Below are positions 27,310 through 30,807 of a DNA stretch of 33,004 nucleotides, piece by piece. Origin of the DNA: Candidatus Woesearchaeota archaeon (GTDB taxonomy: Archaea > Nanobdellota > Nanobdellia > Woesearchaeales > JACPBV01); assembly GCA_016188175.1 (NCBI GenBank), contig JACPII010000017.1, positions 1 to 33,004 of the forward strand. The letters are read 5' to 3'. The translations under genes were made by a program, and so were the position numbers. Each line of letters begins with the position of its first letter. Position 1 is the stretch's first letter. The notes beneath the pieces were generated by a model. That model was given only the letters and a program-made list of their open reading frames with translations, was not told the origin of the DNA and did not search any database.

Positions 27310-27488
27310 GACAGGCTCTGTCCTGAATCTCGCATTCGCTCGGGTTAGCAGCTTCAAAGTTCTAGCCCATATTCCATGAATTCTGACATTCTCCGAAGGA
27401 GCCAACCCTCTTGTCAGCCAGATGGAACAATCGATTGAACTTTGACCTTAGGCTGCTAACCTCCATTCAGGACAGGGCCCCCCCTGTC
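27310..27488. repeat. Long imperfect inverted repeat F
   Basis: Left arm segments GACAGG, TGTCCTGAAT, GGTTAGCAGC (27343-27352) and TCAAAGTTC (27354-27362) pair in order with GAACTTTGA (27437-27445), GCTGCTAACC (27452-27461), ATTCAGGACA and CCTGTC (27483-27488). The outer edge reaches the stop codon of the fibrillarin gene, so the hairpin may act as its 3' end or terminator. Confidence 0.8.
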
Positions 27489-28155
27489 ATTTTCTCTTCT
27501 GCTTGCAGATAAAGAACGCATGGTCCATCTCGAAGGGCTCGAGAGTCCGCACGTCGACGATGGTCAACGACTGCTCGAGAACATTGTGGACTTGGGTAAA
27601 AATGTCCCTTGGCCTTTTGGTCACGTCAATGCTCCTTGCCTTGACTGCAAGAAGGGCGTAACCGTCGTCCTTGAGGAATGCTTTAATGTTCTTCAAAAAG
27701 ATGTCAACCTGGTTCCTTTGGGCGATGTCCTGGTAGAGGATGTCGGGAGCACAAACCCGGGGGGCAAAGAGTTCCGGCCGATTGGCATCTGCGAGGATGG
27801 GGGCAATATTTTTCCGCTCTTCAGCCAGAAATACGAGCTCGCGCATGACTCTTGGCGCAAAATCAACGGCAAAAACGAGGCCTTCCTTTCCAACAATATC
27901 GCTGACGTGGCTTACCGTCGTACCGGTCGAAGACCCCAGGTAGAGGACAACATGGCCCCTGCGCATGAAGATGTTCTGGCAGCCCTTAAAGAGCGCTGCG
28001 CAGAGCTTTGAGCGCCTCGGGTTCCATTCGCGATACTCCTTCCCATTTTCTTTAACAAGAGCTTCGTCATAAACTTTTTTCCCGGGGCTTAAGTTAAGAG
28101 TATACCTCTTTCTCCTGCTGTCCTCATACACCTCAAAAATATTCGACGGCTTCAT
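27487..28155 (-). CDS. flpA: Fibrillarin-like rRNA/tRNA 2'-O-methyltransferase
   Basis: Fibrillarin is the SAM-dependent catalytic subunit of box C/D RNPs and methylates ribose 2'-OH at sites set by guide RNAs. The 222-residue protein shows YTLNLSPGKKVYDE, EYREWNPRRSKLCAAL, the SAM-binding VVLYLGSSTGTTVSHVSDIV, VFAVDFAPRVMREL, ADANRPELF and DILYQDIAQRNQVDIFLKN, all typical. Length is normal. It overlaps the upstream Nop5 gene by four bases (ATGA), so translation is coupled. It would work with Nop5 and L7Ae, both present in the window. Confidence 0.96.
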   Translation of the reverse strand: MKPSNIFEVYEDSRRKRYTLNLSPGKKVYDEALVKENGKEYREWNPRRSKLCAALFKGCQNIFMRRGHVVLYLGSSTGTTVSHVSDIVGKEGLVFAVDFAPRVMRELVFLAEERKNIAPILADANRPELFAPRVCAPDILYQDIAQRNQVDIFLKNIKAFLKDDGYALLAVKARSIDVTKRPRDIFTQVHNVLEQSLTIVDVRTLEPFEMDHAFFICKQKRK

Positions 28156-29096
28156 GAGAACCTCCTCTGGACTTCTTCGAGGAGCTTATCACCGATAAAT
28201 TTTCCTTTAAAGTAGTCCATTTTCACTGCAAGAGACATTTTATCGGCCAATGCCCGCGCTATTTTTCCGTGCAGCGCCTGAGGTGCTGAAGCGATAAGGG
28301 GGTGATGGGCGATATAGCCGTGCCTGGGGGACTTTGCGCCGGTTTTCATATGGCGAAAAAGGGCTTTTTCTGCGCCAAGGATCTGGATGGTCGATGCAGG
28401 AAACTCCATAAGGTTCTTCAGCGATCCCGCCTGCTCAAGCAGCCGCGCCCCGATCAGGAACCCCGCAATGGCGGTGAGATTCGGGCAGATCTTTTTCATG
28501 AGCTGCTCGAGATAGGCCTCCTGCCTTTTTTTAGCATCCTGGAGGGCATGGATGTCCTTTGCAAGCTGCTGGATTATACCGACATCGACAGGTCCAAGGC
28601 TGATCCCCATATTATTTTTTGATGGGATGCCCAGAGATTTGAAAAGCTCCTCTTTTGACTGGAGGATAACTGATTGGACAAACTGCCCATTGTCCTGCAT
28701 GGCCCGCTCCCCTTCAGGATTGTAGAGGGCATACCATTCCCGAAGCCTGCTGATGAGCCTGTTGATAGACAACGAAAGCTCATCGACGGCATTTACTGCC
28801 TGGAGGATGAGCATGTCCTCCCCGGTGTTCTGCCTGACCTGCCCCTTGGTCAATTCTTTGTTGAGAAGATGGAACGAGGGATAATATTCTCTTCTTGCGA
28901 GGAGCCTGAGGAATACGTGCTGCTTTTCGGGTGGAAGCGGCTCCGAGGCTGGGAATTCTTTTTTTACCCTTTCTTCTGCAGCCTGCTTTTCTTTCCATTG
29001 GCCAATATCACCAAAAGGGATGTGCTTGACCAATCGGACCTGCTCGTCAAGGATAAAGGCTCCAAGAATGCACGTCGTAAAATAGTTTTTTGCCAT
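28152..29096 (-). CDS. nop5: Nop5/Nop56-58 family box C/D RNP scaffold
   Basis: Nop5 bridges fibrillarin and L7Ae on guide RNA. The 314-residue protein has an N-terminal fibrillarin-binding region, a coiled coil around DIHALQDAKKRQEAYLEQLM, and the Nop domain: CPNLTAIAGFLIGARLLEQA, LGAEKALFRHMKTGAKSPRH, HPLIASAPQALHGKIARALA and ADKMSLAVKMDYFKG. The C-terminal Lys-rich tail of larger homologues is absent, as in compact archaeal forms. It begins eight bases after the SAM hydroxide adenosyltransferase gene and overlaps fibrillarin by four, so the three form one operon. Confidence 0.95.
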   Translation of the reverse strand: MAKNYFTTCILGAFILDEQVRLVKHIPFGDIGQWKEKQAAEERVKKEFPASEPLPPEKQHVFLRLLARREYYPSFHLLNKELTKGQVRQNTGEDMLILQAVNAVDELSLSINRLISRLREWYALYNPEGERAMQDNGQFVQSVILQSKEELFKSLGIPSKNNMGISLGPVDVGIIQQLAKDIHALQDAKKRQEAYLEQLMKKICPNLTAIAGFLIGARLLEQAGSLKNLMEFPASTIQILGAEKALFRHMKTGAKSPRHGYIAHHPLIASAPQALHGKIARALADKMSLAVKMDYFKGKFIGDKLLEEVQRRFS

Positions 29097-29104
29097 GTTC
29101 CTGG

Positions 29105-29911
29105 TTATACCCCGGTAAATGTTACTTTGGCTCCCTGGCCGACCCCATAGTTGGTAGAAAAATTACCCATGTTAATGGCTGCTTCGATACGCAAATAATC
29201 ATCTTTCATAATCAGCGGCTTTCCTTTCGGAACCTCTCCAAATGTTTCGACAAAAGGGAATTTAATGGATCCTCCATCCGATCCCATTAATACCTGCTGG
29301 TGCTTTTGGAGCCCCATTTGATCCCAAACTTCATGCCGAATGTTAAAGTGCAGCGAGCCAAACTTGTTGACGTGAATGACTTCAGCAAGGATTTTCCCAT
29401 TCCTGCATTCAGCTTCTTCATAGGGGGCTTTGGCTAAGTCATGAAAGCTTAGCTCAGGGCCAAATTCTTCCATGGGGGTTCCTTTTGAAAGATGGGCAGC
29501 TGCCGGCATGAAAACGTCCCTTCCGTGGAAGATTGGAGAGACTGGCTGGTGCATGAGTTTTTGGTTAGAAATTTGGACAACTTTTTTACAGCCGCCAAGA
29601 ACCCGGGCTGCAGGTAATAAAATCCCATTGTCCGGGCCAATGAGGTAATCGCCACGGCTTGTTTGGATCATAATGCCCCTGCGCGGTGTGCCAACGCCCG
29701 GGTCAACAACAGCAACATGGCAGCCAACAGGAAGAAAATAAACGGTTTCCAGGGTTCTTGCGCCAGTGACAATATCAAAATCCGCAATGCCGTGCATCAG
29801 ATCGATAACTTTCGCCTCAGGGTTGATGGAAAATGCAACACCGTGCATGTTGCCGATGCCCTGGGTCTGGACTCCAAAGTCGGTCAGGATGCTGATAAAC
29901 GGCCTTTTCAT
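29105..29911 (-). CDS. SAM hydroxide adenosyltransferase (DUF62 / SAM hydrolase family)
   Basis: This family cleaves S-adenosylmethionine to adenosine and methionine with water (hydroxide) as nucleophile and is related to fluorinase/chlorinase. The 268-residue protein has ISILTDFG (Asp11 near the N-terminus), VIDLMHGIADFDIVTGART, VAVVDPGVGTPRRG, YLIGPDNGILLPAA and FHGRDVFMPAAAHLSKG, the standard family motifs in order. The C-terminal beta-barrel ends GVGQGAKVTF. A TATA-like box is 27 bases upstream and no ribosome binding site is seen, so it leads the operon with Nop5 and fibrillarin. Since fibrillarin consumes SAM, linkage to a SAM-cleaving enzyme is suggestive but not proof of joint action. 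Confidence 0.9.
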   Translation of the reverse strand: MKRPFISILTDFGVQTQGIGNMHGVAFSINPEAKVIDLMHGIADFDIVTGARTLETVYFLPVGCHVAVVDPGVGTPRRGIMIQTSRGDYLIGPDNGILLPAARVLGGCKKVVQISNQKLMHQPVSPIFHGRDVFMPAAAHLSKGTPMEEFGPELSFHDLAKAPYEEAECRNGKILAEVIHVNKFGSLHFNIRHEVWDQMGLQKHQQVLMGSDGGSIKFPFVETFGEVPKGKPLIMKDDYLRIEAAINMGNFSTNYGVGQGAKVTFTGV

Positions 29912-29942: not shown

Positions 29943-30066
29943 GATAACGAAGCAGGGGGGGCAACTGCGATAGTTCAAATGACTTATTACCGGCGGGAGA
30001 TTGGAAAAAACCAAGAGAGATAGATTGTTGATATGCGTGAAGCCCGTTCCATGCCTCATACCGACG

Positions 30067-30320
30067 GTCGCATTGAAAAGTCCTCGCTAACGCTCGGGTT
30101 GCCATCAAGCTCAGCTTGACTGTGATGCTCAAATGCTGACACGAAGAAATCCTCGAGATTTCTTGTGCCTCGCTCGCTACCGCTCGGAGGTTCTGAGAAA
30201 TTCAGTGGAATTTCTGGAACCACCTCGCTCCGTTGCAAAAAGGATGGCAACAGAAAATCTGTGGATTTTCTTGGTTGCGCTTGCTTCGCTCGGCAACAAC
30301 CTTCAACTTTTCAATGCGAC
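30067..30320. mobile_element. MITE-like element with 14 bp terminal inverted repeats and 10 bp target duplication
   Basis: The element is 254 bp long. Its ends GTCGCATTGAAAAG (30067-30080) and CTTTTCAATGCGAC (30307-30320) are perfect reverse complements. It is flanked on both sides by CATACCGACG (30057-30066 and 30321-30330), the signature of a transposition target-site duplication. Inside are several hairpins: GAAATC-CTCG-GATTTC-like near 30145, GAAATTC/GAATTTC near 30200, GTTGC/GCAAC around 30230-30250, GAAAATC/GATTTTC near 30255, and a GTTGCGCT...GGCAAC stem at 30276-30299 shared with 32693-32716. It has no transposase gene, so movement would need one elsewhere. Confidence 0.85.
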
Positions 30321-30334
30321 CATACCGACGAAAA

Positions 30335-30344
30335 GTATATATAT
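30335..30344 (+). promoter_or_regulatory. TATA-like box of hicBA
   Basis: GTATATATAT is centred 29 bases before the hicB ATG and starts four bases after the right copy of the 10 bp duplication, so the element lies directly upstream of this promoter. Confidence 0.6.
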
Positions 30345-30367: not shown

Positions 30368-30577
30368 ATGGGAAAGCAGTTTACGGTAATTGTTGAGAAA
30401 GGGGAGGATGGATACCTTATATCTGAGGTTGTTGAGCTTCCTGGCTGCCATACCCAGGGAAAAACGTATGATCAGCTATTGGAAAGAACTAAAGAAGCAA
30501 TTAAACTTTACCTGCATTCCAAGAAAAGCATCGTGCCTCAGACAAAATTCTTAAGCCTTCAGCAAATTGAGGTTTAA
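30368..30577 (+). CDS. hicB: HicB-family antitoxin
   Basis: The 69-residue protein begins MGKQFTVIVEKGEDGYLISE and continues VVELPGCHTQGKTYDQLLER and TKEAIKLYL, the HicB partial RNase-H-like fold (YPA.VPELPGC-type motif). HicB neutralises the HicA ribonuclease. It lacks the extra DNA-binding domain of longer HicBs, so any autoregulation would need another factor. The ATG at 30368 is chosen because of the TATA box 29 bases upstream. The stop is two bases before hicA, giving the order hicB then hicA. Confidence 0.9.
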   Translation: MGKQFTVIVEKGEDGYLISEVVELPGCHTQGKTYDQLLERTKEAIKLYLHSKKSIVPQTKFLSLQQIEV

Positions 30578-30579
30578 TC

Positions 30580-30807
30580 ATGCCGAAGCTTCCTTTGTTG
30601 ACAGCAAAGGAGATCCAACCCATCCTTAAAAAGCTCGGTTTTGTGTTACAAAGGCAGGAAGGCAGCCATATGTTTTTTGAGCATCCTGATGGCAGGACAA
30701 CAGTAATCCCCAATCATCCCGGCGAGGAGATAGATAGGGGCCTTCTCAATAAGATCATTAAGCACGATCTGCAGATTAGCCGGGAGGAATTTTTTAGAGG
30801 TTGTTAA
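30580..30807 (+). CDS. hicA: HicA-family mRNA interferase toxin
   Basis: The 75-residue protein has the HicA double-stranded RNA-binding-like fold: KEIQPILKKLGFVLQRQEGS, HMFFEHPDGRTTVIPNHPGE and EIDRGLLNKIIKHDLQISRE. The catalytic His in GSHMFF is present, so the toxin looks active. HicA cleaves mRNA and halts translation. It is translationally coupled to hicB and its last four bases overlap the convergent methyltransferase gene. Confidence 0.92.
   Translation: MPKLPLLTAKEIQPILKKLGFVLQRQEGSHMFFEHPDGRTTVIPNHPGEEIDRGLLNKIIKHDLQISREEFFRGC

Follow-up and report, generated by a model that had tools for sequence, protein, structure and literature searches.

The integrase of the yeast retrotransposon Ty3 is guided to Pol III genes by TFIIIB with near base-pair precision, and contact with the factor has been shown. 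In bacteria, insertions of TnGBS, ISLre2 and some of the ISKra4 group keep a constant distance upstream of sigma-A promoters; by analogy with Ty3, these elements have been proposed to contact the initiation complex (PMC3942029). The archaeal insertion sequence ISH6 duplicates an AT-rich target and is thought to prefer promoters or intergenic regions (PMC3942029), and a review of prokaryotic MITEs lists archaeal ones, with DPANN unmentioned (PMC10969869). The element studied here, from an uncultured DPANN archaeon of the order Woesearchaeales, lies in what we call the window, i.e. the whole stretch of 33,004 nucleotides that was analysed, and all coordinates below refer to it. It is short and carries no transposase gene, and its interior is rich in hairpins, in agreement with the sequence-only reading of this DNA, which had described the interior as hairpins and not as a decayed transposase. 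The element and its surroundings comprise the following features:

30066..30321, plus strand: MITE, 256 bp, delimited by its perfect ends, its target duplication and the other copies
30066..30081, plus strand: left terminal inverted repeat GGTCGCATTGAAAAGT, common to other copies
30306..30321, minus strand: right terminal inverted repeat ACTTTTCAATGCGACC
30058..30065, no strand: target duplication ATACCGAC, left copy, 8 bp
30322..30329, no strand: target duplication ATACCGAC, right copy, 8 bp
30330..30335, plus strand: BRE-like GAAAAG of the target promoter, its position and logo common to other copies
30336..30343, plus strand: TATA box TATATATA of this promoter, at a distance of 14 bp from the element
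30368..30577, plus strand: hicB-like antitoxin gene (PF15919, E 1.2e-5, just below the curated cut-off)
30580..30807, plus strand: hicA toxin gene (PF07927, E 2.6e-20)
29105..29911, minus strand: SAM hydroxide adenosyltransferase gene, divergent from hicB-hicA, with the element between

The arms GGTCGCATTGAAAAGT and ACTTTTCAATGCGACC are complementary at 16 of 16 positions, and the flanks are identical at 8 of 8, as the MITE criterion of a target duplication demands. Earlier, the segment had been described as 254 bp long, with 14-bp ends and a 10-bp duplication; the insertion signature stands, but the lengths do not. Namely, a 10-bp string, CATACCGACG, does occur at 30057-30066 and again at 30321-30330, but in this way one end base of the element and chance neighbours had been counted as duplication. 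Since almost every copy compared has the outermost G/C as part of the element, we arrive at a length of 256 bp, inverted ends of 16 bp and a duplication of 8 bp. In the same vein, the right end had been placed four bases from the TATA box, which is the distance from the end of that 10-bp repeat; the measured distance is 14 bp (the 8-bp duplication plus 6 bp), and the proximity to the TATA box itself holds. That description did not mention that the family targets promoters, that inserts are nested in the element, or that its core covaries, all of which are presented below. With perfect ends and a perfect duplication, a recent movement of the window element is plausible, albeit with no empty site in hand.

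The element belongs to a large family. Its own genome (G000), in an assembly that is 75% complete, contains at least 10 end-bounded copies, while the end sequence alone, with up to 2 mismatches, occurs there in 24 places (13 forward, 11 reverse), the reversed pattern used as a control giving 1 and 2 matches, and the whole element, used as a query, retrieves numerous partial relatives. Across the order, 18 of 353 genomes match the end with no more than 1 mismatch, with 44 matches in G057, 34 in G246 and 18 in G257, which represent three other families of Woesearchaeales; dozens of copies are found in other families of the order. In a scan of a genome collection with a strict two-ended pattern, the only named genome to match was Ca. 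Woesearchaeota archaeon NC_groundwater_1391. It should be noted that the genome sequence examined consists of stretches around matches and not of complete genomes. Altogether, 58 end-bounded segments were collected. In 47 of them the flanks agree at no fewer than 7 of 8 positions, and another two, L002 and L008, have a 9-bp duplication; because other copies carry duplications too, chance can be excluded for the one in the window. The sequence-only reading had proposed a search for the ends elsewhere, which in fact yields these many further copies in the own genome and in relatives, and its claim of a MITE-like transposed element is borne out by the multicopy family, by the duplications and by a group of insertion sequences (ISs) with similar ends. 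Resting as it does on sequence comparison alone, this evidence supports the view that the window element is MITE-like, multicopy and transposed.

The family inserts at a fixed distance upstream of BRE-TATA promoters. Outside one end of nearly every copy one finds, in this order, the duplication, 6 bp of BRE-like sequence and a TATA box. In particular, when a BRE-TATA site passing a fixed score was required to begin exactly 8 bp beyond one end, 45 of 49 copies had one, compared with 6 of 1497 random points taken from the same loci. When instead the best BRE-TATA site was sought in approximately 100 bp of both flanks, 39 of 49 copies and 13 of the 1497 random points had its TATA box at exactly 14 bp. 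While the score threshold was picked after the first results, the contrast between copies and random points does not depend on it. A site at the expected offset is never present on both flanks of one element, and in an alignment oriented by AT content the information is restricted to the BRE-TATA block, the duplicated bases being nearly devoid of it. In all 4 exceptions, a TATA-like box is no more than 2 bp off the expected place: two have 9-bp duplications with the TATA box still 6 bp further on, in L056 the box is two bases further out, and L240 has a weaker CATAAATA at the expected place. The gap between duplication and TATA box is, in other words, 6 bp for both 8-bp and 9-bp duplications, and for this reason it is the promoter side that sets the position of insertion. 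A possible open reading frame starts downstream of the TATA box in 43 of the 49 copies, at a median of 30 bp. The end facing the promoter is one end in 25 copies and the other in 19, with 5 unclear, i.e. without a clear preference. A literature search, itself incomplete, turned up no report of TATA- or BRE-directed insertion in archaea.

At the hicBA locus neither BRE nor TATA box is disrupted, and 32 bp separate the start of the TATA box from that of hicB. The element displaced whatever stood upstream of the hicBA BRE, and for any effect on expression there are no data. The position next to the promoter, which had first been pointed out for this locus only, is nothing particular to hicBA but the rule that the whole family follows in its targets. 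On the other side of the element, genes for fibrillarin, a Nop-domain protein and the SAM hydroxide adenosyltransferase stand in a row on the minus strand (27487-29911), divergent from hicBA.

Could such a pattern arise without any targeting? If insertion took place anywhere and only intergenic copies that spare a promoter survived, one would expect to find BRE and TATA intact, as they are in all copies examined. That said, selection of this kind predicts variable distances, and most copies are fixed to the base, which leaves us with scarcely any credence in selection alone.

A sister family in the same genome obeys a similar spacing. Namely, six copies (L007, L004, L017, L018, L038 and L044) have a core very similar to that of the window family, different ends (GAGGTTGGTGCGAAA) and 9-bp duplications, followed, as judged by eye, by 6 bp and then a TATA-like box. 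It is as if the core had swapped its ends. The genome abounds in structured repeats in general, and further palindromic families with yet other ends are seen at L034, L028, L041-L043, L037, L039, L046 and L047.

Which transposase might move these elements? The search for a transposase with matching ends, suggested at the outset, had a divided outcome: a decayed IS remnant was found, and an intact IS with exactly the ends of the MITE was not, at least in its own genome at 75% completeness. The remnant, of the IS5 superfamily and located in the related genome G216, ends in GGTCGCATTGAAAAGTTC, the end sequence of the family, at 18 of 18 positions, and a second one in G213 matches at 17 of 18. With a 44-aa C-terminal piece read from the two remnants we traced an intact relative in G201 (L180:1492-2425), an IS of 934 bp with ends GGCGTTATTGAAAAGT, of the same kind as those of the MITE, and a duplication GGTTTGGG identical at 8 of 8 positions. 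Its protein matches DDE_Tnp_1 (PF01609) above the cut-off and the NCBIfam model IS5_2 (NF033579) with an E-value of 5.9e-26 and 91.6 bits, which is below the curated cut-off of 140. Among five transposase homologues, D114, D185 and E237 are invariant, and we assign them by position as the DDE triad; the transposase is of the DDE_Tnp_1 and probable IS5 type, and not of the Mutator superfamily. Loci obtained from a Pfam search for DDE_Tnp_1 lacked the MITE ends, and the partner was reached only via the 44-aa remnant beside an end. In the own genome, there is a relative at C30 with 31% identity, an open frame of 289 aa and other ends.

What is more, the ISs of this group share the target. The TATA box lies at 14 bp in the intact L180 and at 14-16 bp in further members, namely at 14 in L217 and at 15 in L214, on both sides, and at 15 in L159, which has a 9-bp duplication. 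For IS copies in G240 of which one flank is visible, roughly every second flank shows the spacing, which is what one would predict when just one end is turned towards the promoter. In a control with unrelated ISs, only one (L129) had a target duplication, and its best site was at 43. From the ends, the duplication length and the shared target, we infer that the IS5-type group may move the window element in trans. As an observation apart, a decayed IS of the group in G216 (L071) has a short MITE inserted in its end, near 1379-1507; the ends of this MITE are GGCGTTATTGAAAAGTTC and its duplication is CATAGAGC, and owing to the place of insertion the copy is away from a promoter.

Two other kinds of transposase have to be considered as partners. 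IS6 and IS1595 are families known for 8-bp duplications and GG ends, and IS6-type genes are present in 68 of the 353 genomes of the order. However, the DDE domain of IS1595 was found in none of the 14 genomes tested, all of which carry the ends, and the IS6-type loci examined had no matching ends alongside, while the ends of the MITE and its target spacing agree with the IS5-type group. We rejected both candidates on these grounds, and consider mobilisation by either type unlikely. Separately, we observed that some IS6-like transposases (L121, L122 and L123, in G000, G052 and G304) are split into a zinc-ribbon frame and an overlapping DDE frame, due either to decay or to a programmed frameshift.

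Our main reading, to which we would assign a probability of roughly 80%, is that of a non-autonomous MITE which a DDE transposase of the IS5 superfamily recognises by its ends and inserts just upstream of core promoters. Within it, mobilisation in trans by the IS5-type transposase and the origin of the spacing in TBP/TFB docking are inferred. In particular, the transposase of an IS group spread across Woesearchaeales would recognise the MITE ends and insert the element, in either orientation, directly upstream of an archaeal core promoter and just outside the BRE. The junction would lie 6 bp before the TATA box, after a duplication of 8-9 bp, and this spacing would come from docking on promoter-bound TBP/TFB instead of direct reading of BRE-TATA. 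As BRE and TATA would be left intact, the element could spread with little damage to genes. The data suggest, in short, a transposase guided by the machinery of transcription start, so that genes are not broken.

As for the docking itself, the claim that an archaeal IS5-type clade docks on promoter-bound TBP/TFB and inserts at the upstream edge of the BRE is, with the contact only inferred, about an even bet. The transposase may also read BRE-TATA DNA itself as its target motif, without any contact with TBP/TFB, which we regard as a serious possibility, if at somewhat less than even odds. Indeed, the target logo is sharp and one-sided, and a DNA-binding domain could suffice to produce it. Set against this is the fact that the motif is that of a functional promoter, with genes typically beginning some 30 bp further on, although this is not decisive versus docking. 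Both docking and direct reading yield a constant gap, and the present data cannot separate them.

The interior of the element is more conserved in layout than in sequence. Copies without inserts are mostly 161-166 bp long across different families, and they fold into an end stem, a one-sided run of approximately 14-17 nt, stems S2 and S3, and, in the centre, a hairpin containing runs rich in C and in G, even if single-sequence predictions differ in detail. The longer copies, including that of the window, contain additional two-hairpin units of approximately 42-57 bp. In the window, these parts are located as follows:

30098..30106, plus strand: core stem S2, 5' arm GTTGCCATC, pairs with 30243-30251 and covaries between genomes
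30243..30251, plus strand: core stem S2, 3' arm GATGGCAAC, pairs with 30098-30106
30141..30232 (bounds approximate), plus strand: nested inserts, two two-hairpin units, missing in short copies such as L019 and L022
30252..30300, plus strand: nested two-hairpin insert, 49 bp, missing in short copies, present alone or in tandem elsewhere in its own genome

The arms of S2 vary by genome as pairs: GTTGCCATC/GATGGCAAC, GTGGCCATC/GATGGCCAT, GGTGCTATC/GATAGCATC, GGTAGCAGC/GCTGCTACC and GCAATGCC/GGCATTGC. RNAalifold on a plain MAFFT alignment recovered the end stem alone, because the inner stems are out of register in such an alignment, and for this reason we turned to permutations over fixed windows instead. 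Two arms from one element pair much better than arms from different elements: the observed pairing value was reached in 0 of 20000 permutations for S2 and in 1 of 20000 for S3, compared with 4452 of 20000 for a control window. The internal stems are kept at fixed positions with covarying sequence. Such covariation tells us that a stem is maintained but not why; template-switch (quasi-palindrome) repair could produce it in place of selection, and covariation alone is therefore not evidence of function.

These stems bring up the question of whether the segment is mobile at all, or rather a conserved regulatory or RNA element of promoters whose structure is its function. The covarying stems, and the fact that one end always faces the promoter, are what one would expect of such an element; on the other hand, nearly all copies have target duplications, their flanks are unrelated, there is no orientation rule, and the element matched no Rfam family. 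We give this possibility very little weight, yet a structural role of the core besides mobility is not excluded.

Regarding the nested inserts, at 30141-30232 the original central hairpin is partly lost. Units similar to these occur elsewhere, and related ones are present singly or in tandem in G000 and G004. Filled and empty copies, compared by eye, suggest that the units insert without duplication after sequence ending in AC; they might be REP-like, or an HUH transposase might move them. Scattered through G000 and G004, such units, about 50 bp in length, stand singly, in tandem or nested in other repeats (in the window at 30252-30300, and in L035, L038, L041, L042, L043 and others).

What do these results mean in a broader context? 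They provide an archaeal example of transposition in which core promoters are targeted to the base pair, and a simple safe-haven route for selfish DNA multiplying in small genomes. At the same time, the insertions cut promoters, such as that of hicBA, off from any upstream regulatory sites. Every copy also flags a promoter in uncultured DPANN genomes, in which promoters are otherwise guesswork.

In comparison with known systems, prokaryotic MITEs are likewise short and non-coding, with inverted ends, 7-9 bp duplications and a strongly folding transcript (PMC10969869), to which the window family adds its rule of targeting promoters and a core whose layout persists across families. The closest named transposases in a plasmid collection, at 26-28% identity, are those of haloarchaeal ISHxa2-like IS5 elements, whose left ends, GGCTCTGTTGAAA, are similar to the woesearchaeal ones; however, none of nine left ends had a TATA box at the expected distance, and the right ends could not be delimited. 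In ISH6 the AT-rich motif is inside the duplicated bases, whereas in the MITE it is outside them, the duplicated bases being almost free of information. As with Ty3 and TFIIIB, initiation factors would guide the element to promoters, though on the side of the MITE the contact is only inferred; if docking is true, it would be an archaeal counterpart of this pair in a transposase superfamily not known for docking. Finally, TnGBS, ISLre2 and ISKra4 resemble the MITE in their fixed distance upstream of promoters and in near-perfect inverted repeats inserted in either orientation. They differ in that they belong to the Mutator superfamily and insert 15-17 bp from the -35 box of bacterial sigma-A promoters, whereas the MITE is linked with an archaeal BRE-TATA promoter and a transposase of the DDE_Tnp_1/IS5 type.
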